DNA from: Gammaproteobacteria bacterium
GTDB lineage: Bacteria; Pseudomonadota; Gammaproteobacteria; JACCYU01
DNA length: 32,061 bases
Reading direction: 5' to 3'
NCBI GenBank assembly: GCA_013695765.1
Contig: JACCZW010000044.1
Location: forward strand, 1 to 32,061
Of the stretch, positions 4,753 through 27,125 are shown piece after piece; within the stretch, counting starts at the first letter, position 1, and each line of letters starts with the position of its first letter. A program made the translations under genes and the position numbers. The notes beneath the pieces are model-generated. The model was not told the DNA's origin and did no database searches. It saw only the letters and a list, made by a program, of their open reading frames with translations.

Positions 4753-4895
4753 CCATGGCACGAATCCCCGCGGCCGAAACGCAGTGCGCCTGCGGCCTTG
4801 CTTGCGTATCATGCCCAAACTCGACGGCTGGAAAACGCGGGTGCCGCGCTTGCTCTTCCGGCCGCCGACAATCTGCGAACTACGACGGAGGAATC

Positions 4896-5693
4896 TTGAA
4901 CTATCGAGGCGTAATGATCCTGCTGGCGCTGTTGATCGGCTTGCCCGCGCAAGCCGCGACGAATGTGGATACGCGAACGGTGAATTACAAAGCCGGCGAC
5001 ACCGAGTTGCGAGGCTACCTGGCTTACGATGGCGAACAGGAACAACCGCGGCCCGCCGTGCTGGTGGTGCCCGAATGGTGGGGACTCAACGATTATGCGC
5101 GCCGTCGCGCGCGCGAACTGGCGGAGCTTGGCTACGTCGCACTGGCCGTGGATATGTACGGCGACGGCAAGGCGACGGCCGATCCCGAGCAGGCTGGCGT
5201 CTGGGCCTCGCAGATCAGCAAGAACCCGGGGCTGGGTCGCGCACGGTTTATGGCCGCGTTGCAGGCGCTTCAGGGGCAGCAAGGCGTCGATCCGGAACGG
5301 GTCGCGGGAATCGGTTATTGCTTCGGCGGTACGATGGTGCTGAACATGGCGCGCGTCGGCGCGGAATTGGATGGCGTGGTGAGTTTTCACGGTACGTTGC
5401 CGGTGGATGGCCCGCCCGCGCCGGAGCAGATCCAAGCCGAGGTGCTGCTGCTGCATGGTGGCGCCGACAGCTACGTGACGGCGACGCAGATCGCCGACTT
5501 CAAACGCCAGATGCAGCACGCCGGCGCGGACTTCGACATCATCACCTATCCCGGCGCGAAGCACAGCTTCACCAATCCCGCGGCGGACGCGGTGGCGCAA
5601 AAATACGATCTTGACGTGGGTTACGACGCGCAGGCCGAACAACAGTCCTGGCTCGAGATGCGGACGTTTCTCGTGCGAGTCCTTGGGTATTGA
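4896..5693 (+). CDS. Exported dienelactone hydrolase family protein
   Basis: This alpha/beta-hydrolase of the dienelactone hydrolase family has the nucleophile elbow GYCFGG with Cys, the Asp in GGADSYV and the His in AKHSF, which together form the expected Cys-Asp-His triad. It also has the family block PAVLVVPEWWGLNDYA. The first 20 or so residues (MILLALLIGLPAQAA) form a signal peptide, so the protein is probably periplasmic. The start is set at a TTG (4896) because GGAGG lies just before it at 4887-4891. An ATG at 4914 is the alternative but lies more than 20 bases from that site. The substrate is unknown; family members hydrolyse lactones and small esters. coaD follows after 39 bases. Confidence 0.83.
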   Translation: MNYRGVMILLALLIGLPAQAATNVDTRTVNYKAGDTELRGYLAYDGEQEQPRPAVLVVPEWWGLNDYARRRARELAELGYVALAVDMYGDGKATADPEQAGVWASQISKNPGLGRARFMAALQALQGQQGVDPERVAGIGYCFGGTMVLNMARVGAELDGVVSFHGTLPVDGPPAPEQIQAEVLLLHGGADSYVTATQIADFKRQMQHAGADFDIITYPGAKHSFTNPAADAVAQKYDLDVGYDAQAEQQSWLEMRTFLVRVLGY

Positions 5694-14701: not shown

Positions 14702-14757
14702 GGCGGGCAAGCGTCATTGACGGCAAAGCACCCGATTGCGTCACTAGAACGCACGCA

Positions 14758-16152
14758 TTGACCTTCTCGCACGGTTTCGCAATTGCGCCTCGACCCATGC
14801 GCCAGATCCAGATTGACGGCTTAGCGCGCACCATGACCGGCCATCTGCCGCTACTTGAATATGCCGATGCCGACGCGCCGCTGGCGTGGTGGCGCGGTGC
14901 ACTTGTAATCCGTCAGGCGTTTGTCGCGGACGTGAAACGCGTGGCGCGTGCGTTGCAGCCACCGTACTTCGTGGTCAATTTATGTGAGGATCGCTATCTG
15001 TTCCTCGTCACATTCGCGGCGGCGCTCATCCGCGGCAAGACCAACCTGTTGCCGCCCAGCCGTGTGCGCCAGGATTTGCACGACATCGCCGCGGCCTACC
15101 CGAATCATCAGACTTTGCGCGATGCCGATATCGAGGCCGCGCTCAGCGCACAAGCGCGTGTAACGGAAAGTTTCGCCACCCTTAAGATCGCGCACGATCA
15201 CGTAGCGGCGATCGCGTTCACGTCCGGCAGCACCGGCAGGGCCCGCGCGCATGAAAAGCGCTGGAGCGAGCTGGTGATGGGCGCGCGCCTTGCGGATCAG
15301 CGTTTCGGATTTCGAAGCAGAGGTGTGGCGGTGGTGGCGACGGTGCCCGCGCAGCACATGTATGGGCTAGAGACGTCCGTAATGGTGCCGTTGACCTGCG
15401 GCGTGGGCGTAGTTGCCTCAAAGCCGTTTTACGCCGAAGACATCCGCGCGGCGCTAATTTCGGTGCCGGCGCCGCGCGTGTTGATCACCACGCCCATTCA
15501 CCTGCGCGTGTGCGCGCAAAGCGGACTCAAATGGCCGCCGCTGGAATTCATTATTTCCGCCACCGCGCCCTTGAGCGAGCCGCTGGCGCGCGAGGCCGAG
15601 CGCGTGCTGGGCGCGCCGGTGAAGGAGATTTACGGCTGTACCGAGGCCGGTTCCATCGCCAGCCGGCGGCGGCTGGATGGCGATACGTGGCAGACTTATG
15701 ACGGTATGTCGATAGTCGAGACGCCGCGGGGCGTACGCTTGAGGACGCCGTACCCTCATAACCCGGAGGTCGAGCTTACCGATGTATTGACGCGGTTGGA
15801 TGCAACACGCTTCGAGCTGGGCGGCCGTCACGCCGACCTGGTGCGCATCGCGGGCAAGGGCGCGTCGCTGGCCGACCTGAATCTCAAACTTAACGAGGTA
15901 GAAGGCGTGCAGGACGCGGTATTGGTCGCGCCGGAATGCGAAGGTGACCGCAGCGCGCGGCTGATCGCGCTGGTGGTGGCGCCGGAAATCCCGGCGCGCG
16001 CGATTCTCGAAAGTTTGCGCGCGCGCATCGATCCGGCTTTCATGCCGCGGCCGGTGTACAAGGTCGAGCGTCTGCCCCGCGATACGCTGGGCAAACTGCC
16101 GCGCGCCGAGTTGCTGGCGCTTATCCAGCAGCTCCGTAGCCGCGAGCGGTAA
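14758..16152 (+). CDS. AMP-forming acyl/aryl-ACP ligase (aryl polyene type)
   Basis: This ANL-superfamily adenylating enzyme has AFTSGSTGRARAHEKRW at about residues 152-168, which is the phosphate-binding core motif. EIYGCTEAGSIASRR corresponds to the substrate-pocket and YGxTE motif, and DTLGKLPRAELLAL near the end holds the C-terminal catalytic lysine. By context it should activate the hydroxybenzoate made by the chorismatase and load it on the ACP encoded downstream, the task of XanA2 or ApeH-type ligases. The listed start is TTG at 14758. ATGs at 14797 and 14833 are alternatives and no strong ribosome-binding site decides between them. The length of up to 464 residues is usual for this short ligase type. 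It begins the rightward operon. Confidence 0.85.
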   Translation: MTFSHGFAIAPRPMRQIQIDGLARTMTGHLPLLEYADADAPLAWWRGALVIRQAFVADVKRVARALQPPYFVVNLCEDRYLFLVTFAAALIRGKTNLLPPSRVRQDLHDIAAAYPNHQTLRDADIEAALSAQARVTESFATLKIAHDHVAAIAFTSGSTGRARAHEKRWSELVMGARLADQRFGFRSRGVAVVATVPAQHMYGLETSVMVPLTCGVGVVASKPFYAEDIRAALISVPAPRVLITTPIHLRVCAQSGLKWPPLEFIISATAPLSEPLAREAERVLGAPVKEIYGCTEAGSIASRRRLDGDTWQTYDGMSIVETPRGVRLRTPYPHNPEVELTDVLTRLDATRFELGGRHADLVRIAGKGASLADLNLKLNEVEGVQDAVLVAPECEGDRSARLIALVVAPEIPARAILESLRARIDPAFMPRPVYKVERLPRDTLGKLPRAELLALIQQLRSRER

Positions 16153-16484: not shown

Positions 16485-17684
16485 ATGAATCCCGCCGCAC
16501 CCGCGCCGGCCTTCGATCCCCCCGCGATGGATCCGCGCCTGACCGCGTTGCTGGCGCGGTATCCGCCGGCGATGTTCGGCGAGCGTCTGCATCACAGCAT
16601 TGAGTTGATGGAGCGTTACAGCATTGATTGGTCCATCGAACTGCTGCATCGCCTGGGCGTCATGGAGCACCTCGCGCAGTGGCAGAGTGCGGCGGCTTTA
16701 TGTCGTTCAATGGCATTCGCGCCGCGCTTTGAAACGGCGCTGACCTGGCTCTTGGAGCGGCTGCTGGAGACAGGAGGCATTACGTCGCGCGAGCACGCCG
16801 GCATGCGGCAATACCGACTTGAGCAGGCGCTGTGGGAACCGGCGCTCGCCGAGTTGCGCGCCGCCGGTATGGCCATCGATCCCGCCAATCGCGCGACTCT
16901 GAACCTGCTGGATCATGCGGCGTCGATCTATCCCGCTGTCGCGCGCGGCGAGACGACCGGCGAGCAGGCGCTGTTCGGCATGGACGGCATCCCGTTGTGG
17001 CTTGAGTATTTTCACGACGATAACACCACTTACGCCATCAATAACTGGCTTGGCGCGCTTGCCGCTGCGGATTGCGTGGCGACACGCGCCGGAATCCGGA
17101 TACTGGAAATCGGCGCCGGGACGGGCAGCGCCAGCCAGACGTTGCTGCGGACCTTGAGCGAGCGCGACCTGACACCGCGCATCGAGCGTTATGTGATTAC
17201 CGAACCCAACGCGTTTTTCCGGCGGCGAAGTCAGCGCGATCTGAGCAGGCAGTACGCGGATCTGCCGCTGGAGTTCCGTGCGCTGGACATCGATAAGCCC
17301 TGGGACGCGCAAGATGTGGCACCCGGCGGCTTTCATCTCATTTACGGGATAAACGTGCTACACGTCGCCCACGATCTGGTGTTCAGTCTGCGGCAGGCGC
17401 GCGCGTCGCTGGCGGCGGACGGCTGGCTCGTCATTGGCGAATGTCTGCGGCCCTTTGCGCGCCAGCCGATTTACGCGGAGCTGATGTTTTTGTTGCTCGA
17501 CGGCTTTAGCGATGTGAAAACCGATCTTCAGTTGCGCCCCAACGGCGGCTTTCTTACGCCGTCGCAATGGCGAACGGTATTCGCGTGCGCCGGGTTTGAT
17601 CGTGTCGAGGTCAGGCCGGACGTGGAGCGCATCCGCGAGATTTATCCGCATTTTTTCACCGGCGCCGTGTGTGGCAGCGTTTAG
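16485..17684 (+). CDS. Class I SAM-dependent methyltransferase
   Basis: The 399-residue protein has the SAM-binding motif ILEIGAGTGSASQTLL at about residues 206-221, an acidic motif II region (YVITEPNAFF) and YGINVLHVAHDLVFSL further on. An N-terminal region of about 200 residues precedes the methyltransferase fold, as in methyltransferases attached to polyketide systems. It may methylate the aryl head or the chain, since aryl polyenes are commonly O- or C-methylated. The site cannot be read from sequence. The ATG at 16485 follows the dehydratase stop closely; the frame is open further upstream within that gene. Its stop is followed by remains of another methyltransferase. Confidence 0.8.
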   Translation: MNPAAPAPAFDPPAMDPRLTALLARYPPAMFGERLHHSIELMERYSIDWSIELLHRLGVMEHLAQWQSAAALCRSMAFAPRFETALTWLLERLLETGGITSREHAGMRQYRLEQALWEPALAELRAAGMAIDPANRATLNLLDHAASIYPAVARGETTGEQALFGMDGIPLWLEYFHDDNTTYAINNWLGALAAADCVATRAGIRILEIGAGTGSASQTLLRTLSERDLTPRIERYVITEPNAFFRRRSQRDLSRQYADLPLEFRALDIDKPWDAQDVAPGGFHLIYGINVLHVAHDLVFSLRQARASLAADGWLVIGECLRPFARQPIYAELMFLLLDGFSDVKTDLQLRPNGGFLTPSQWRTVFACAGFDRVEVRPDVERIREIYPHFFTGAVCGSV

Positions 17685-18063: not shown

Positions 18064-18333
18064 ATGGAAGTGAGACTCTCGCCCGCCGAGTTGGAGGTGG
18101 CCGGCCTGATTATCGAGACGCTGAATCTGGAAGACGTGACTGCGGCCGAGATCGAGCCGGACGCGCCGCTGTTCGGCGACGGGCTGGGGCTGGATTCAAT
18201 CGACGCGCTGGAGTTATCGCTGATGGTTTCCAGGCGCTACGGCATTCAGATGCGCTCCGACGACCCGGACAATGCGCTCACCTTTGCCTCGCTGCGCGCG
18301 CTGACCCGTCATATTGAAGCGCATCGTAATTAA
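18064..18333 (+). CDS. Acyl carrier protein of the polyene pathway
   Basis: An 89-residue acidic protein with the phosphopantetheine site GLGLDSIDALEL; Ser45 would carry the prosthetic arm. The flanking sequence EIEPDAPLFGDG before the site is typical of ACPs in aryl polyene and flexirubin clusters. A strong ribosome-binding site (AGGAGG, a few bases before the ATG) marks the start. It would hold the aryl starter and the growing polyene chain for the ketosynthase, reductase and dehydratases of this locus. Many aryl polyene clusters have two ACP genes; only one is seen here. Confidence 0.92.
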   Translation: MEVRLSPAELEVAGLIIETLNLEDVTAAEIEPDAPLFGDGLGLDSIDALELSLMVSRRYGIQMRSDDPDNALTFASLRALTRHIEAHRN

Positions 18334-18387: not shown

Positions 18388-19294
18388 ATGATGCAGCAAA
18401 ATCTGCACGCACGTCGCTGGCTGGATTTGCCGGAGCGCGGCACGCCCGCGATGCTGCGGGTAATCCACTGGATCGCGATGCACATCGGGCGCTGGGCAGC
18501 GCGCGTGCTGCTGTATCCGATCGCGTTGTACTTTCTGTTCAGGGCGCACGAGGCTAGACGCGCGTCCTACGATTATCTGTGCCGCGTGCGCGGGCGCCCG
18601 GCCCGCTGGTGGCACGTGTTCCGCCACATTTACTGTTTCGCGGCCACCATTCTGGATCGCGTCTATCTGCTGCAGGGCAATTTCGCGTGCGTCGACGTAC
18701 GCGTGCATCACAAAGAAACTTTCACCGGCAGGTAGACAGCGGCAAAGGCGCCATTTTGCTCGGCTCGCACCTGGGCAGTTTCGAAATGTGCGCACCCTGG
18801 GCGTGTCGCATCAGCACGTCCCGCTGAAGGTGCTGATGGATACCGAGCACAACGGCAGCATCACGCGCTTTCTGCACGCGCTCAACCCCGACATTGCCGC
18901 CACCGCCATCGACGCGCACCGGCCGGATACTTTGCTCAACGTCAAAGAGAGCGTGGACGCGGGCTTCATGATCGGCGCGCTGGGCGATCGACCCACCGGC
19001 GACCGTAAAACGCTGCGCTGCGAATTCCTGGGCGCGCCAGCGGCGTTTCCAGTCGGCGCCATCCAGCTCGCCGCCATCATGCAATGCCCGGTTATTCTGT
19101 TTTTCGGGCTTTATCGCGGCGGCAACCGCTACGACGTGCATTTTGAACTGCTGACGGAAAGGGTTTCGCCGGATCGCGCGACCCGTGCGCAGGACATAGA
19201 ACGCTGGACGCGAGCGTACGTTAAGCGGCTGAAACATTACACCCGCGCAGCACCGTATAACTGGTTCAATTTTTATCCATTCTGGGATGATTGA
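18388..19294 (+). pseudogene. LpxL/HtrB-like lipid acyltransferase with two frameshifts
   Basis: Three consecutive frames together give one lysophospholipid-type acyltransferase. The first (from ATG 18388) has WIAMHIGRWAARVLLYPIAL and RHIYCFAATILDRVYLLQG and fails at about 18720-18735. The second continues GKGAILLGSHLGSFEM, including the block that matches the family H-x4-E/D-like active site (SHLGSFE), and fails at about 18785-18795. The third carries VPLKVLMDTEHNGSI, IGALGDRPTGDRKT and PVILFFGLYRGGNRYDVHFE to the end at 19294. Each break looks like loss of one base. In polyene clusters such enzymes are thought to transfer the acyl product to a lipid-like carrier in the inner membrane. As written, the gene is inactive. 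Confidence 0.8.
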
Positions 19295-19307: not shown

Positions 19308-19799
19308 GTGCAGGGATATAAAGAGGCAACGGCGCGCCTGCCAGTCGGCAAGGACGAGATCCGTACGCTGATCCCGCACGCCGGCGCGATGTGCCTGCTG
19401 CATGCGGTGCTTGCGTGGGATGATGAATCGATTCATTGCACCAGCGATACGCATCGCGCCGCGGACAATCCCCTGCGCCGTGAAGGGCATCTGTCCGCGT
19501 TGCACGCCTTCGAGTATGGCGCGCAGGCCGTGGCCATCCACGGCGGACTGCGCGCACGCGCCGCAGGCATCGCATTGCCATCGGCTTATCTGGCGGGCTT
19601 ACGCGCGGCGCATCTGCATGCCGATTATCTGGACGCTTTCGAACAATCGCTGACCGTGCATGCCACGCGTGTATTCGGCGACACTGGCAACGCAATCTAC
19701 GTCGCTCGAATTACCGCCGGTGAAACTTTGCTTGCCGAGGCGCGTATCACCATCATGTTGCGCACGGGGAGAATGTGGCGGCGTGGTCCGCGACAGTGA
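19308..19799 (+). CDS. Second hotdog-fold dehydratase (ApeP-like)
   Basis: The 163-residue protein has LIPHAGAMCLLHAVLAW, the start signature of the ApeP-like hydroxyacyl-ACP dehydratase group, then HLSALHAFEYGAQAVAIHGG with the conserved helix of the hotdog fold. In known aryl polyene pathways this protein works with an ApeI-type subunit, here the product of 16157-16474. The start is GTG at 19308; no strong ribosome-binding site is visible. The LolA-like gene starts inside its last codons (GTGA overlap at 19796-19799). There is no lesion. Confidence 0.82.
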   Translation: MQGYKEATARLPVGKDEIRTLIPHAGAMCLLHAVLAWDDESIHCTSDTHRAADNPLRREGHLSALHAFEYGAQAVAIHGGLRARAAGIALPSAYLAGLRAAHLHADYLDAFEQSLTVHATRVFGDTGNAIYVARITAGETLLAEARITIMLRTGRMWRRGPRQ

Positions 19800-20431: not shown

Positions 20432-20545
20432 AGCACTTGCGACTGGCTCGGGTCACACCCAACATTATTTCCGTTGCGCGAATTCAGTGGGCTGTCTATG
20501 CGTCGGCGATAAGCGCGCTGCGCGACCGCGCGTTTGCGCGCCCGC

Positions 20546-22876
20546 ATGCGTCGTAGTCGCCGGTTCGCAAGTGTGTCGCTGTGGCTGGCGGCGCTGCTTG
20601 TCTGTGTGTGGCTGGTGGCGACACAGGTGACGGTCTCCACCGATCTCGATGCGTTCATGCCAGCCGACGGCGATGCCGCCGACCTATTGTCCCAGCTGCG
20701 CGAAGGCCCCGCGCAGCGTCTGATCCTGATGGGTATCACCGGTAGCAGGGAGCAAACGCGTGCAACGATCAGCGCGGAGTTGGCCGCGGGTCTGACGAAA
20801 ACCGGCCTGTTTACGCGCGTGGCGAACGGCGAGAATCTAATGGATGCGGGCGCGCAGCGCCTGCTGTTCTCGCACCGTTATCTGTTGAGTCCCCGCGTCG
20901 GCGCGCGCGGTACCGCCCCGTTTGACGCGGAATCTTTGCGGGAAGCGCTGGAATCTCGCTTACAGGAACTGCGTTCGCCCGTGCCGGTCACCGACTCTAG
21001 CAGTCTGACGGCCGATCCCACGCGCGAATTTTACGCGGTGCTGCAATCCTTAAGCAGCGGCGAGCGACCCGAGACGCGGCGCGGCGTCTGGGTTTCGTAC
21101 GATGGCGCACGCGCGCTGTTGCTCGCCGAAACGAAGGCAGCCGGGCTGGATCTGGACGCGCAGGGCAAGGTGGTTAAGGCAATCGAGACGGCATTTTCCG
21201 AAGTCACAGCGAATCACCAGGAAGCCCGTCTGGAACTGAGCGGCGCACCGGTATTCGCGACCGTCTCGCAAAACACCATCCGGTCTACCGTGACGCGTCT
21301 CTCCACCGCGGCCAGTATAGCCACCGCCCTGATTCTGCTGCTCGCCTACCGTTCGGGTCTGGTGCTGCTGCTGGCCACCGTACCGCTGGCGAGCGCGATG
21401 CTGGTGGCGGTAGTGACCGCGAGTCTCGTGTTCGGTGAGATCTTCGGCATCACGCTCGCATTCGGAATGACTTTGCTGGGGGTGGCGATGGACTACCCCG
21501 TGCACGTGTTCAGTCACCGCCGCCCTGATGAGCCTGTGGACAGCACCCTGCGGCGTGTGTGGCCCGTGCTGCGGCTGGGGGTTATCAGCACCGCGCTGGG
21601 TTACACCGCGATGGTCACCGCCGATCTGCCCGGCCTCAAGCAACTCGGTGTATTCGCGATCGCCGGTCTGCTCACTGCCGCGGCGGTAACGCGCTGGGTG
21701 TTGCCGGCGCTGTTGCCGGCCGGCTGGACGCCGACGCACGCCGGCGCGGGGGCGTGGATGGACCGGACACTCAAACCGCGGTCGTGGCTCGCGCTGTCGT
21801 TGCTGATGGCCTGCGTTGCCGGATTGATCGTTACCGCGCGGTCCGACCCGGTACTGTGGGAAAACGATCTGGCGCGCTTAAGTCCGATACCCGCCGCCGC
21901 GCTGGCCGTGGACAGGCAACTGCGACGCGGCCTGGGCGCGCCGGAACCCGGCGATCTCGCGATCATTACGGCGCCGGATGCGCAAACCGCTCTGGTGCGC
22001 AGCGAACGGCTGGCGGTGCGGCTTAAAGGCTTTATTGATCGCGGCGGGCTGCAAGATTACGACATGGCGGCGCGTTATCTGCCGAGTGCGCGCGCACAGC
22101 GCGCGCGGCAGGCGGCGTTGCCGCCACCGGATATATTGCGCGCCGACCTCGAACGTTCGCAGACCGGCCTGCCGTTCAAGACTGGCTCGTTCGAACCGTT
22201 TTTGCGCGATGTGCAGCGCGCACGCACGGCCGCGCCGCTGGAACTGAACGACATCCAGGGTAGCGCGCTGGGGGCGCGAGTAGAATCGCTGTTATACGCG
22301 CGTGACAATGAATGGGTGGCGCTGGCGCCGCTCTCGGGCGTCAATAACGGGAAAGCATTGGCAGCGTGGTTCGCCGAGCGGCCGGTCTGGGTGAAGTATG
22401 TGAATTTGAAAGCGGCCACCGGAAATCTCATGGCGCATTTTCGCGATACGGGCATCAATCGTTTCGCCTGGGGCGCGGTGTTGATCGTTGCGCTGCTGGC
22501 GGCGGGCCTGCGGGACTGGCGCATGGTGCTCGCCGCCGTAGCGCCGGTGGCGCTCGCCGTTATGGTGACGGTGTGCGCGCTGCTTGCGTTGGAGCCTGGG
22601 GGTCTCACTCTGTTTCATATCGTGTCGCTGCTGCTGGGGGTGGGCATCTGCATCGATTACAGCCTGTTTTTCAGTCATGCCGGCATTGAGGCGCGGCGTC
22701 ACACCCTGCACGCGGTGCTGGTGTGCGGCGCGTCCACCCTGGTCGTGTTCGCCATGCTCGCCATGTCCTCTATCCCCGTGCTGCGTGCGATCGGGCAGAC
22801 GGTGGCTATCGGCGTGTCGGCTAGTTTTCTGCTCGCGCTGGTGCTGGCGCCGCAACTGACGCGGCCGAGACCATGA
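20546..22876 (+). CDS. MMPL/RND-family exporter of the polyene pathway
   Basis: The inner-membrane exporter of about 776 residues has the two-fold RND-like layout. A first transmembrane helix (LWLAALLVCVWLVAT) is followed by a large periplasmic domain. A helix bundle comes next at about residues 245-420, with IFGITLAFGMTLLGVAMDYP carrying the conserved acidic residue before YP. A second periplasmic domain and a second bundle follow, with FHIVSLLLGVGICIDYSLFF. The Asp residues in MDYP and IDYS fit the proton-relay positions of this family. In aryl polyene clusters it probably exports the acylated pigment lipid to periplasmic LolA-like protein. Start ATG 20546; the stop overlaps the next gene (ATGA at 22873). 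Confidence 0.88.
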   Translation: MRRSRRFASVSLWLAALLVCVWLVATQVTVSTDLDAFMPADGDAADLLSQLREGPAQRLILMGITGSREQTRATISAELAAGLTKTGLFTRVANGENLMDAGAQRLLFSHRYLLSPRVGARGTAPFDAESLREALESRLQELRSPVPVTDSSSLTADPTREFYAVLQSLSSGERPETRRGVWVSYDGARALLLAETKAAGLDLDAQGKVVKAIETAFSEVTANHQEARLELSGAPVFATVSQNTIRSTVTRLSTAASIATALILLLAYRSGLVLLLATVPLASAMLVAVVTASLVFGEIFGITLAFGMTLLGVAMDYPVHVFSHRRPDEPVDSTLRRVWPVLRLGVISTALGYTAMVTADLPGLKQLGVFAIAGLLTAAAVTRWVLPALLPAGWTPTHAGAGAWMDRTLKPRSWLALSLLMACVAGLIVTARSDPVLWENDLARLSPIPAAALAVDRQLRRGLGAPEPGDLAIITAPDAQTALVRSERLAVRLKGFIDRGGLQDYDMAARYLPSARAQRARQAALPPPDILRADLERSQTGLPFKTGSFEPFLRDVQRARTAAPLELNDIQGSALGARVESLLYARDNEWVALAPLSGVNNGKALAAWFAERPVWVKYVNLKAATGNLMAHFRDTGINRFAWGAVLIVALLAAGLRDWRMVLAAVAPVALAVMVTVCALLALEPGGLTLFHIVSLLLGVGICIDYSLFFSHAGIEARRHTLHAVLVCGASTLVVFAMLAMSSIPVLRAIGQTVAIGVSASFLLALVLAPQLTRPRP

Positions 22877-23730
22877 GCAGTTTAGATCCATCATCGTCAG
22901 CCGGACTGTCGCGGCATGCCTTGCTCGCGAGGCCCACGCCGTTATGGCTTTGTCTGCTGCTGAGCGCGCACGTCGTCGCGTTGCTGCTGGTGTTTTTCTG
23001 GCCGTCGCTGTGGCCCGTGGCGCTCGCCCTGGCGGTAGCCAGTCACGCGAGCCTGTTCGTGGCCAGCGTGCTGCCGCGCGGACGTTGGCTTGGTCCCAAT
23101 CTGCGCCGTTTGCCCGTCAGCGCCGGCCGTGCGGTCGCGCTCACCTTTGACGACGGGCCGGACCCGGAAGTCACTCCGGAGGTTCTGCGCATCCTGGCCG
23201 CACACGGCGCGCGGGCGACCTTTTTCTGCATTGGCGAACGGGCGCGCGCTTGTCCCGAGACCGTGCGCGCGATCATCGAGGCCGGCCACTACGTAGAAAA
23301 TCACAGCGATCGTCATCTGCCCTGGTTCGCGTTTATGACGCCGCGCGCGATGCGGCACGAGATCGCGAACGCACAGGCGCGGCTGACGCAGTTGACCGGT
23401 CGCGCACCGGCATACTTCCGCGCGCCGGCCGGCATGCGCAATCCCGCCACCGGCCTGGTGCTCGCCGCGCTGGAACTGCGGCTGGTGAGCTGGACGCGGC
23501 GCGGGTTCGATACCGTCACGCGCGATCCGGCGCGGGTACTCAAGCGGTTGCTGCGCAATGTCGCGGCGGGTGACATTCTGGTGTTGCACGACGGCGCCTC
23601 CGCACGTGGCCGTGACGGTCAGCCGGTGGTGCTGGAGGTTCTGCCGCTATTGCTGCAACGCCTGGAGGCTGAGGATCTGCATGTGGCGCCCATCCCGCCG
23701 CCCGCCAGGTCCGCTTTACGCGCGCCATGA
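22873..23730 (+). CDS. Membrane-anchored polysaccharide deacetylase (NodB homology)
   Basis: Two N-terminal transmembrane helices (PLWLCLLLSAHVVALLLVFF and a second at about residues 38-55) precede a NodB domain. The domain has ALTFDDGPDPEVTPEVL with the catalytic and metal-binding aspartates, then VENHSDRH with the HxxxH zinc pair, then YFRAPAGMRN and the late DILVLHDG histidine block. Such enzymes remove N- or O-acetyl groups from carbohydrates. Its place in this operon, overlapping its neighbours by four bases on both sides, suggests that a glycosylated or carrier-linked pigment is trimmed outside the membrane. That substrate is an inference. Confidence 0.85.
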   Translation: MSSLDPSSSAGLSRHALLARPTPLWLCLLLSAHVVALLLVFFWPSLWPVALALAVASHASLFVASVLPRGRWLGPNLRRLPVSAGRAVALTFDDGPDPEVTPEVLRILAAHGARATFFCIGERARACPETVRAIIEAGHYVENHSDRHLPWFAFMTPRAMRHEIANAQARLTQLTGRAPAYFRAPAGMRNPATGLVLAALELRLVSWTRRGFDTVTRDPARVLKRLLRNVAAGDILVLHDGASARGRDGQPVVLEVLPLLLQRLEAEDLHVAPIPPPARSALRAP

Positions 23731-24887
23731 ATCGTACCGTCAAAGTCCGCCAGCGAGTGCGGCGTCATCCGGTGGCGAAGATGTATTACCGCCTGCGCAC
23801 GCGGCGCGATACACCGCGGCAACGGGCGCTGGCGGTGTTTATGGGTGTTGTGGTCGGCTGCACCCCGTTGTACGGGCTGCATATCTTCATGTGTCTGGCG
23901 CTGGCACGACTCACCAATGTCAACGGTATAACGACGTATCTGGCGGCGTTCGTCAATAACCCGCTGACCGCGCCGCTGATTTTTTATCTTTCGCTGGGCA
24001 CGGGGCACTGGCTGTTCATGGGCGAGTGGCCGCGGCTTAGTTGGGACGAGGCGCGCGCGGCCGGCATGTGGCATCTGGGCCGGCATATAGTGGTGGGCAG
24101 CCTCATTATTGGGTTGGTGCTGGGTGTGGTCTGTGCCGCGCTGGTGTACTGGGTCAGCAAGCCCCCGAGGGAAGAAACGCCGGCGCAGCAGTTGGTCGAG
24201 TCCACCGCGCGCCGGTATCTGGATACGGGCATATTCAACTGGGAGTTCGTGCGCGGCAAGCTGACTTACGACCCGCTTTATCTTGGCTTGCTGAAGGAGA
24301 ACATGCTGCCGCGGCAGGGACGGCTGCTGGACCTCGGCTGCGGGCGCGGTCAGTTACTGGCGCTGCTCGGAGCCGCCACCGGAATGCACGCGCGCGGAAT
24401 ATGGCAGCCGGAGTGGCCCGCGCCGCCCGCTAATCTGACCCTGGCGGGTGTCGATATGCACGCCCGACACGTCGGCGTCGCGCGCGAGGTGCTCGCCGAT
24501 CGCGCCGAGCTGCGCACCGAGAACCTGGCGACGTATCAGCCGCCTCCCTGCGAAACAGTCACGTTACTGGATGTGCTGTTTTATATGTCGCCATCCGCGC
24601 AGCAACAGTTGATCGCGCGGGTGCATGCCGCTCTGGCGCCGGGCGGACTGCTGCTGATCCGCGAACCCGACATGGCCGCGGGCGCGCGCTTTACGGTGAC
24701 GCGGCTCGCCGAGGCGTTTTACGGCCTGTGCCGCGGCCGTTTCAAACAGCGTTATCATTACCGTGCCGCCGCTGAATGGACCCACTTGCTTGCAGACGCC
24801 GGATTCAGCGCCAAACCGCGCCCCATGTCCGCCGGCACGCCGTTCGCCAATGTCTTGATCGAGGCGCGCAAACGGCAAACACTTTAA
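23727..24887 (+). CDS. DUF2062 membrane domain fused to a class I methyltransferase
   Basis: Residues 1 to about 150 form a DUF2062 domain: MYYRLRTRRDTPRQRALAVF then GVVVGCTPLYGLHIFMCLAL, NNPLTAPLIFYLSLGTGHWL and a further membrane segment VGSLIIGLVLGVVCAALVYW. After a linker, LLDLGCGRGQLLALLG (about 201-216) gives a SAM-binding motif I, followed by TVTLLDVLFYMSPSAQQQL and LAPGGLLLIREPDM. The protein is therefore a membrane-tethered methyltransferase of 386 residues. It overlaps the deacetylase gene by four bases, and the ketosynthase gene starts 10 bases after it. It may methylate the lipid-bound aryl polyene at the membrane. The substrate is not known. Confidence 0.83.
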   Translation: MNRTVKVRQRVRRHPVAKMYYRLRTRRDTPRQRALAVFMGVVVGCTPLYGLHIFMCLALARLTNVNGITTYLAAFVNNPLTAPLIFYLSLGTGHWLFMGEWPRLSWDEARAAGMWHLGRHIVVGSLIIGLVLGVVCAALVYWVSKPPREETPAQQLVESTARRYLDTGIFNWEFVRGKLTYDPLYLGLLKENMLPRQGRLLDLGCGRGQLLALLGAATGMHARGIWQPEWPAPPANLTLAGVDMHARHVGVAREVLADRAELRTENLATYQPPPCETVTLLDVLFYMSPSAQQQLIARVHAALAPGGLLLIREPDMAAGARFTVTRLAEAFYGLCRGRFKQRYHYRAAAEWTHLLADAGFSAKPRPMSAGTPFANVLIEARKRQTL

Positions 24888-24896
24888 CGTAATGTC

Positions 24897-26168
24897 ATGT
24901 CGATACCGCCGTTAGCGATCTCCGCATACACGCTGGTCAACGCCTTGGGGCGCGGCGTCGATGGCACGGTCACGCGTCTGCTCGACGGCGTGAGCGGTTT
25001 GCGGCCGTGCGATTTCGAGCATGCTGACCTGCCGACCTGGATTGGGCGCATCGACGGTTTGGAGGACGAGCCGGTGGATCGGGACTTCACCGCATACGAT
25101 TGCCGCAACAATCGTCTGGCGCGCGTGGCCCTGCTGCAGGACCGCTTCGCTACCGCGATCGCGGTAGCGCGCGCCCGCGTGGGCGCCAACCGCGTGGGCG
25201 TGTTCGTCGGCACCAGCACTGCCGGCATTCTGGAGACCGAACACGCGTATCGCGGCTTTGTGGAGACCGGCGTGCTGACACAATTCAGCTATCGCCATAC
25301 TCAGGATATTTTTTCGGTGGCCGATTTCACCCGTGCGTATCTTGAACTCGAAGGTCCGGCGGTGGGCATTTCCACCGCATGCTCCTCCAGCGCCAAGGTG
25401 TTCGCAAGCGCCTATCGCTACCTGCGCGCGGGGCAGTGCGACGCGGCCGTGGTCGGTGGCGTGGACAGTTTATGCCTGACCACCTTGTACGGTTTTCATT
25501 CCCTGGAACTGACCTCCCCGCAACCCTGCCGTCCCTGGGACGCGGCGCGCGACGGACTCAGCATCGGCGAGGCAGGCGGTTTTGCACTGCTGGAGTGGCG
25601 CGCTGTATTCGCCTCATCGGGTGGCGACAGCGAGATCATCAACAGCATCTGTACGGCCCTGGCGCGGCCACAGCGCGCGGTGTCGCCCACGCAGTTTCAC
25701 AACTCGGTGCATAACAGCCCGGCCGGTTACTGGGCGATCGCCACACTTTGTCACAGTTCGTCGGTGAGTCTGTCCGCGTACGATGGCAGCTTCGCCGCCG
25801 GCCTGCTGGAGGCGGTCACCACGGCGCTGGTGGAGGGCGGGCCGGTGTTACTTGTCGCTTACGATTATCCGCCGCCAGAGCCGTTGTCTCAGGTACGCGG
25901 TTTTTGCGCGCCATTCGCCGCGGCGATGTTGATCGATGCGCGCCCGGGCCCACGCGCCATGGCGAGCTTTGACATTGCGCTCGCACGCGGAGAGCGGGAA
26001 GATCGGATGCGCGACAAAGAACTCGAAAGCCTGCGCACGGGCAACCCGGCGGCGCGCGCGTTGCCGCTGTTGGAAGCCATCGCGCGGCAGGAGGCGCGGC
26101 GGGTGGTGCTGCCGTATCTGCCGGACACGCGGCTGGCGGTGGAGGTGCGACCCGCGGATGGCTATTGA
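24897..26168 (+). CDS. Chimeric beta-ketoacyl-ACP synthase / chain-length-factor protein
   Basis: Residues 1 to about 234 are the first half of a ketosynthase: VGVFVGTSTAGILETEHAY, VGISTACSSSAKVFASAYR with the active-site Cys162, and DGLSIGEAGGFALLEW. At about residue 235 (base 25599) the protein switches in frame to the C-terminal half of the chain-length-factor family (Ketoacyl-synt_2 type): VFASSGGDSEIINSICTAL, SPTQFHNSVHNSPAGYWAIA, LSAYDGSFAAGLLEAV and LLVAYDYPPPEPL. The ketosynthase part that normally carries HGTxT and the second histidine region is missing. The total of 423 residues is close to that of one normal ketosynthase, so a folded product is not excluded. In known aryl polyene systems KS and CLF are separate genes forming a heterodimer. 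Here a deletion seems to have joined them. Confidence 0.8.
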   Translation: MSIPPLAISAYTLVNALGRGVDGTVTRLLDGVSGLRPCDFEHADLPTWIGRIDGLEDEPVDRDFTAYDCRNNRLARVALLQDRFATAIAVARARVGANRVGVFVGTSTAGILETEHAYRGFVETGVLTQFSYRHTQDIFSVADFTRAYLELEGPAVGISTACSSSAKVFASAYRYLRAGQCDAAVVGGVDSLCLTTLYGFHSLELTSPQPCRPWDAARDGLSIGEAGGFALLEWRAVFASSGGDSEIINSICTALARPQRAVSPTQFHNSVHNSPAGYWAIATLCHSSSVSLSAYDGSFAAGLLEAVTTALVEGGPVLLVAYDYPPPEPLSQVRGFCAPFAAAMLIDARPGPRAMASFDIALARGEREDRMRDKELESLRTGNPAARALPLLEAIARQEARRVVLPYLPDTRLAVEVRPADGY

Positions 26169-26198
26169 CGCTTGCAAAAATGGTTAACACTCAAGCTC

Positions 26199-26278
26199 TG
26201 TCATTCTGAGGCCGAAGGCCGAAGAATCTGCCGTTCTACAGAGCAAAAAGCAGATGCTTCACTTTGTTCAGCATGACA
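26199..26278. repeat. 80-base palindromic intergenic repeat (TGTCATTCTGA type)
   Basis: The left arm TGTCATTCTGAGGCCGAAGG and on to GAATCTGC is an imperfect reverse complement of the right arm GCAGATGCTTCACTTTGTTC plus AGCATGACA. About 18 bases lie between the arms. It encodes nothing and sits between the KS chimera and fabG. Similar in style to the element at 6624-6760. Confidence 0.72.
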
Positions 26279-26384
26279 TCTCTGTTAAGCACTTATGCAA
26301 GGCTCAATAATTCGCGAGTGTCCTTGAACCTTATATCGAGACAAAGCCTGGCGTGGGCAGAGCCGTGGGAACTCGCACCTGTGA

Positions 26385-27125
26385 ATGACGATGACTGAAC
26401 CCGCGCTCAGGCGCGCACTAGTGACCGGAGGCAGCGGCGACATCGGCGCGGCGATCTGCCGCCGACTGGCGCGCGATCGCATGCACGTAGTGGTACACGC
26501 ACACCGCAATCTTGAGCGCGCGGAAAGTCTGGTCGCGGAGATCGCCGACGCGGGCGGTTCCGCCGAGATAGTCGCCTTCGATGTAACGCAAGGCGAATTA
26601 ACCGCCGAACGCCTGCGGACACTTTTGGAAGCAGGTCCGATTCAGGTGCTGGTCAGCAACGCCGGCGGTTATCACGACGCGCCGATGGCGGGCATGAATC
26701 AGGCGCAGTGGCGTTATCCGATCGATGTTTCGCTGCATGGCTTTTTCAACGTCGCCCAGCCGCTGCTGTTGCCCATGATGGCGACGCGCTGGGGACGCAT
26801 CATCGCCATATCCTCGGTGGCTGGCGTTATCGGCAATCGCGGCCAGACTAATTACGCGGCCGCCAAGGCCGGCCTGTCCGGCGCGGTCAAGTCGCTGTCG
26901 CTGGAGGTCGTATCGCGCGGGATTACGGTCAACGCGGTCGCGCCAGGCGTGATCGCGGGCCACATCACTGCGCGCGCATTCGCGGCCGATGCCATCAAGA
27001 AAATGGTGCCGATGAAGCGCGCGGGCACGCCGGACGAAGTCGCCGCGCTGGTCGCATTTCTGGCCTCGAACGACGCTGCCTATATTTCCGGGCAGGTTAT
27101 CTCCATTAATGGCGGAATGGCGTAG
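26385..27125 (+). CDS. fabG: 3-oxoacyl-ACP reductase (FabG-like SDR)
   Basis: A 246-residue short-chain dehydrogenase with the NADP-binding motif ALVTGGSGDIGAAICRRLA, NAGG in LVSNAGGYHD, the catalytic Ser in IAISSVAGVIGN and the YxxxK pair in TNYAAAKAGLSGAVKSLSLE; the C-terminus VISINGGMA is typical of FabG. It reduces 3-ketoacyl-ACP to the 3-hydroxy form, which the dehydratases of the locus then dehydrate, giving the polyene. It is separated from the upstream genes by a 217-base gap with a palindromic repeat, so it may have its own promoter, though none was recognised. The start at ATG 26385 or 26391 makes little difference. The gene is intact. Confidence 0.88.
   Translation: MTMTEPALRRALVTGGSGDIGAAICRRLARDRMHVVVHAHRNLERAESLVAEIADAGGSAEIVAFDVTQGELTAERLRTLLEAGPIQVLVSNAGGYHDAPMAGMNQAQWRYPIDVSLHGFFNVAQPLLLPMMATRWGRIIAISSVAGVIGNRGQTNYAAAKAGLSGAVKSLSLEVVSRGITVNAVAPGVIAGHITARAFAADAIKKMVPMKRAGTPDEVAALVAFLASNDAAYISGQVISINGGMA

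Follow-up and report, generated by a model that had tools for sequence, protein, structure and literature searches.

Does the open reading frame at 24897-26168, which begins as a ketosynthase (KS) and ends as a chain-length factor (CLF), encode a natural single-chain hybrid enzyme, or is it the dead scar of a deletion between two neighbouring genes? The window analysed here, 32,061 nucleotides long, is the entire contig C44 of genome G000 (3.13 Mb, 164 contigs, 99.3% complete); G001, the only other genome of the same genus returned, served as the reference for the deletion. The initial annotation had offered both readings, and it is the dead scar that finds support: KS and CLF form an intact syntenic pair in G001, the window is cleanly short of 778 bp with 2 bp of microhomology at the join, none of the relatives shows such a chimera, and another gene of the cluster is broken too. 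Very probably, a recent loss of 778 bp turned two genes of a xanthomonadin-like aryl-polyene cluster, itself decaying, into a deletion-fusion pseudogene. The parts of the fused frame are as follows.

24897-26168, + strand: fused KS-CLF open reading frame, 423 aa, ATG start, no internal stop; N-terminal half of a KS and C-terminal two thirds of a CLF.
24897-25599, + strand: KS part (ApeO-type), codons 1-235, with Cys162 (TACSSS) and the GEAGG block; a complete N-terminal thiolase half.
25599-25600, + strand: junction left by the deletion, lacking 778 bp that are present in G001 (C40:15446-16223), with a 2-bp GC microhomology.
25600-26168, + strand: CLF part (ApeC-type), from about residue 87 to the end; start codon and first 85-86 residues gone.

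That a KS passes into a CLF in one open frame is borne out by the Pfam profiles, with PF00109 (ketoacyl-synt, the N-terminal domain) covering residues 7-233 of the fused frame and PF13723 (Ketoacyl-synt_2) covering residues 235-366, the latter matched over profile positions 52-175 of 223, and no stop intervening. Cys162 and the GEAGG block, both named in the initial annotation, are present in the KS part, and the chimera therefore retains the N-terminal thiolase half with its active-site cysteine (PF00109, Cys162 in TACSSS). Pfam gave no match to PF02801 (Ketoacyl-synt_C) in the 423-aa fused frame, and the NCBIfam model NF006618 (PRK09185, a beta-ketoacyl-ACP synthase subfamily) aligned with residues 4-235 only, scoring 271.8 bits where the cut-off is 407. 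The near-normal length of the product, remarked on in the initial annotation, is the mere sum of two remnants, 235 and 188 residues (the G001 KS has 395), and no sign of a restored fold. Each half is an ordinary member of the families represented by the ApeO:ApeC pair (PDB 6QSP, 7F28): the KS half is 34% identical to ApeO (6qsp_A, structure match), and a sequence search with the CLF part finds ApeC chains. ApeO and ApeC are, however, two complete proteins, whereas in the window the C-terminal half of the KS and the N-terminus of the CLF have been deleted and the remnants joined.

The deleted segment was measured by comparison with the nearest intact cluster, that of G001, which has the gene order of the window and two separate, undamaged genes, the KS at 14743-15930 (395 aa) and the CLF with its end at 16807. 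Apart from a few places, blastn blocks between the window and G001 cover the region continuously. At the join, the first of two successive blocks runs to 25599, equivalent to G001 15445, and the second starts at 25598, equivalent to G001 16222. In a side-by-side alignment, identity is high up to the join on one flank and from the join on the other, the two overlapping by 'GC' with no repeat at the breakpoint beyond these 2 bp. Together, the blastn blocks and this alignment place the join between 25599 and 25600, confirming the earlier estimate of a position near 25599. With the 778 bp, the KS gene has lost its last ~161 codons, which include the whole of Ketoacyl-synt_C, and its stop; the CLF gene has lost its first 85-86 codons, and the short spacer between the two genes is absent as well. 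On either side of the gap, the KS part shows 86% amino-acid identity to the G001 KS and the CLF part 87-89% identity to the G001 CLF. Illegitimate, microhomology-type end joining probably removed the 778 bp across the end of the KS gene and the start of the CLF gene, and the in-frame join would then be a one-in-three chance requiring no further explanation. The locus resembles deletion-fusion pseudogenes in general, in which neighbouring genes are joined by a short-homology deletion and a second gene of the pathway is inactivated, differing in that the join happens to stay in frame.

The missing segment was not found elsewhere in the G000 assembly, where only its 46- and 39-bp edges were recovered, at the join. 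G000 yielded neither a second CLF nor a second KS of the aryl-polyene type, the one further KS picked up being a FabF-like housekeeping protein on contig C53; G000 thus shows no separate CLF gene whose product could dimerise with a KS, as an ApeC-type CLF does. With neither partner encoded elsewhere in the genome, aryl-polyene elongation should be abolished, and the condensing step of the pathway should be dead in the window's organism. The xanthomonadin-like cluster of Lysobacter enzymogenes, of the same pathway type, likewise has adjacent genes for a KS and a half-size CLF (ORF17 and ORF16); these are intact, and deletion of either the KS gene or the CLF gene (ORF16) abolished pigment (PMC3691225), the outcome predicted for the window's organism.

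We then consider the rest of the cluster. KS, CLF, ketoreductase, dehydratase, acyl carrier protein, ligase, exporter and acyltransferase genes occur together in the window, as in an aryl polyene or xanthomonadin-like cluster, the dehydratase match being weak. The gene set consists of a ligase, a hotdog protein, a methyltransferase, an acyl carrier protein, an acyltransferase, an ApeP-like protein, a LolA-like protein and an MMPL exporter, together with a polysaccharide deacetylase, a DUF2062-methyltransferase, the fused KS-CLF, a ketoreductase and a glycosyltransferase. The principal genes around the fused frame are listed here.

14758-16152, + strand: AMP-binding ligase, probably for aryl-starter activation, intact.
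18064-18333, + strand: acyl carrier protein, intact (NF006617, PF00550).
18388-19294, + strand: LpxL-like acyltransferase, broken by 1-bp deletions at 18716 and 18789 (DNA alignment to the intact G001 gene, 4764-5672).
19308-19799, + strand: ApeP-like hotdog dehydratase, a weak match (PF22817, E=0.003, below the curated cut-off).
20534-22876, + strand: MMPL-family exporter, intact.
23727-24887, + strand: DUF2062 and SAM-methyltransferase open reading frame, intact, directly upstream of the KS.
26385-27125, + strand: ketoreductase (ApeQ/FabG-type), intact.

Neither of the two acyltransferase deletions (18716, 18789) lies within a long homopolymer, and the frame of this gene is unbroken in G001; in nearly all related clusters the match to it runs through in one piece (locus L078 gave two). 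Over the ~14 kb aligned to G001, and the 778-bp deletion aside, frame-breaking indels inside genes occur only in the acyltransferase. Every other cluster gene compared is intact, which counts against a reading of decay; the frameshifts in the acyltransferase suggest relaxed constraint on the pathway in this lineage, and real decay accounts for two independent lesions in one pathway better than chance error does.

What doubt remains concerns mainly an assembly or consensus error, in which the true chromosome would carry an intact KS and an intact CLF and the 778 bp would have been dropped in assembly. This we consider unlikely: G000 is a draft of 164 contigs, and the junction is known from one assembly of the species, but collapse happens at long repeats and the join shares only 2 bp, the missing segment lies on no other contig of an assembly that is 99.3% complete, and the ~14 kb of aligned flanks contain no other frame-breaking indel inside genes, the acyltransferase excepted. 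A strain variant is likewise possible.

Taking the junction as a genuine deletion, we asked what its product could be. The initial annotation had envisaged a KS that borrows the missing half of its fold from the CLF; the identity of the CLF part stands, but its role as a substitute for the C-terminal KS half does not, since PF13723 is an N-terminal-domain family (PMC8358021). In aryl polyene CLFs the first thiolase domain is mostly kept, and the second is almost lost save a few strands (PMC8358021); the Lysobacter homologue has been described as resembling the N-terminal half of a CLF (PMC3691225). The structure papers and our fold search agree that the aryl polyene CLF is equivalent to the N-terminal half of a thiolase, which the retained KS part already provides, and not to the missing half, so the CLF cannot supply the lost second half of the KS. 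MAFFT placed the CLF rows on the N-terminal half of the KS, and narrow alignments of KS and of CLF, compared profile to profile, gave no significant match. Complementation of the fold by the CLF was rejected on the published structures and the Pfam profile, which both place it, like the retained KS part, in the N-terminal half.

The residues lost point the same way. PF02801 lies at 244-352 of the G001 KS, and H290, K319, H324 and G381-G384 (G001 KS numbering), invariant in 19 KS sequences, all fall inside the deleted segment, leaving the chimera without the C-terminal half that bears the HGT and GHT histidines, the lysine and the GFGG loop. The CLF part is also incomplete as a Ketoacyl-synt_2 domain of the ApeC type, its profile match starting at position 52 of 223 in the chimera versus 16 in the G001 CLF; the chimera enters the CLF domain at strand 86-91 of the G001 CLF model, and the first strand and helix of the domain are gone. 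An AlphaFold model of the chimera, which counts as supporting evidence only because its alignment is shallow (24 rows, none across the join), reached a pLDDT of 71.1 and a pTM of 0.58, with residues 237-282 around the junction near 40, and did not form a complete KS fold. Compared with KS structures in the PDB, this same supporting model gave best TM scores of ~0.37-0.41 over ~240 columns at ~8 A rmsd and matched only half of any KS, lacking the complete two-domain thiolase fold. The intact G001 CLF was modelled with a pLDDT of 89.7 and a pTM of 0.89, its best fold match being ApeC (6qsp_B). The 423-aa product would probably be unstable or inert, because it consists of the N-terminal half of a KS and a second, beheaded N-terminal half, without the catalytic His, Lys and GFGG elements and without a free CLF partner.

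A functional single-chain hybrid that keeps Cys162 and serves as a KS of a new kind, an acyl-binding protein or a decoy is in our view very improbable. The open frame, the Cys162 motif and intact conserved residues speak for it, as do low dN/dS values in both halves; set against these are the missing PF02801 half and with it the His/His/Lys set, a CLF part that is a second N-terminal half lacking its first strand and helix (PMC8358021), a poor model with a low-confidence junction, occurrence in a single genome and a broken acyltransferase in the same cluster. Even less credence attaches to its specific form, a chimera translated as a stable single chain with an acylatable Cys162 that works in the pathway without the C-terminal half of the KS. 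The natural hybrid borrowing a CLF half, as first envisaged, is thus not borne out by the CLF structures (PMC8358021, PMC3691225), the absent PF02801 or the model. Were such a hybrid active, the view that no KS can do without both of its thiolase halves would be overturned; the evidence is against it.

The substitution patterns can be accommodated by a deletion-fusion pseudogene if the loss is recent. Pairwise dN/dS between the window and G001 is 0.09-0.33 over all genes (KS part 0.19, CLF part 0.21, C-terminal part of the acyltransferase 0.11). Such low values by themselves show no decay and fit only a recent loss; they compare two lineages, and most of the divergence can predate the deletion, which also weakens them as support for a functional hybrid. 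Conserved columns are changed about equally in the window and in G001, at 3/67 and 4/67 in the KS and at 1/33 and 1/33 in the CLF. Changes polarised with three outgroups showed no clear excess of amino-acid change on the window branch (13:7, 11:7 and 9:8 in the KS part; 6:1, 2:4 and 3:2 in the CLF part), and accelerated evolution on that branch was rejected on this basis. The intact conserved residues in both halves and the lack of a clear excess of changes indicate lesions that are recent on the time scale of the divergence from G001.

The distribution of the fusion is narrow. From a scan of GTDB contigs the best 80 loci were kept, and at every locus with both halves adjacent (~85, those from a genome search included) the KS and CLF lie in separate open reading frames, the window alone being fused. 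The gap between the matched KS and CLF parts is nearly always ~700-780 bp, with two loci near 1.0 kb. In a class-wide sample of 369 genomes, 83 had matches at E<=1e-25, and among these 83 only G000 covered query residues 1-423 in one frame; the same junction was found neither in the best 80 loci of the GTDB scan nor in the 369 class genomes. The intact arrangement is present in G001 and at the ~85 other loci, and in the family member G002 the end of the KS and the start of the CLF are likewise separate; G002 also looks broken, but on contigs of 3.4-3.8 kb that are too short and noisy to carry a conclusion. On this sequence comparison, two separate genes are the ancestral state, and the fusion is confined to G000. 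That the fused gene is ancestral and gave rise to separate KS and CLF genes in the other lineages is scarcely credible, as no support for it was found, relatives near and far have the complete two-gene arrangement with an extra 700-780 bp that encodes the KS C-terminal half and the CLF N-terminus, and G002 too has the two ends separate.

As a broken gene, the fused frame has little importance beyond annotation, where it risks being filed as a full-length 'beta-ketoacyl synthase', and cluster-mining tools would call an aryl polyene producer although the elongating KS:CLF is gone. It also offers a small example of recent pigment-pathway loss in a gammaproteobacterial lineage.

Several further features of the window were observed. 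The DUF2062 membrane domain is joined to the SAM methyltransferase in one open reading frame (23727-24887) in G001 as well. Directly after the fused frame lies a ~143-bp dispersed, MITE-like repeat (26172-26314), with seven further partial matches at 75-90% identity on six other G000 contigs; the spacer between CLF and ketoreductase in G001 is only ~60-90 bp, and no repeat like it aligned there. At 20437-20574, the window has 137 bp versus ~3.6 kb in G001 (L022:6815-10405), a stretch that carries a DUF3015-like open reading frame, an Lnb_N/DUF7840 gene read in two frames and an alpha/beta hydrolase, and that has no match elsewhere in G000; the difference reflects either loss in G000 or gain in G001. 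Near the start of the window, a truncated phage replication protein (2310-2837, - strand) matches the Phage_GPA profile at 231-320 only, and the adjoining open reading frame at 1363-2004 repeats part of that protein behind a transposase-like start; the pair has the look of a prophage or IS insertion in decay.
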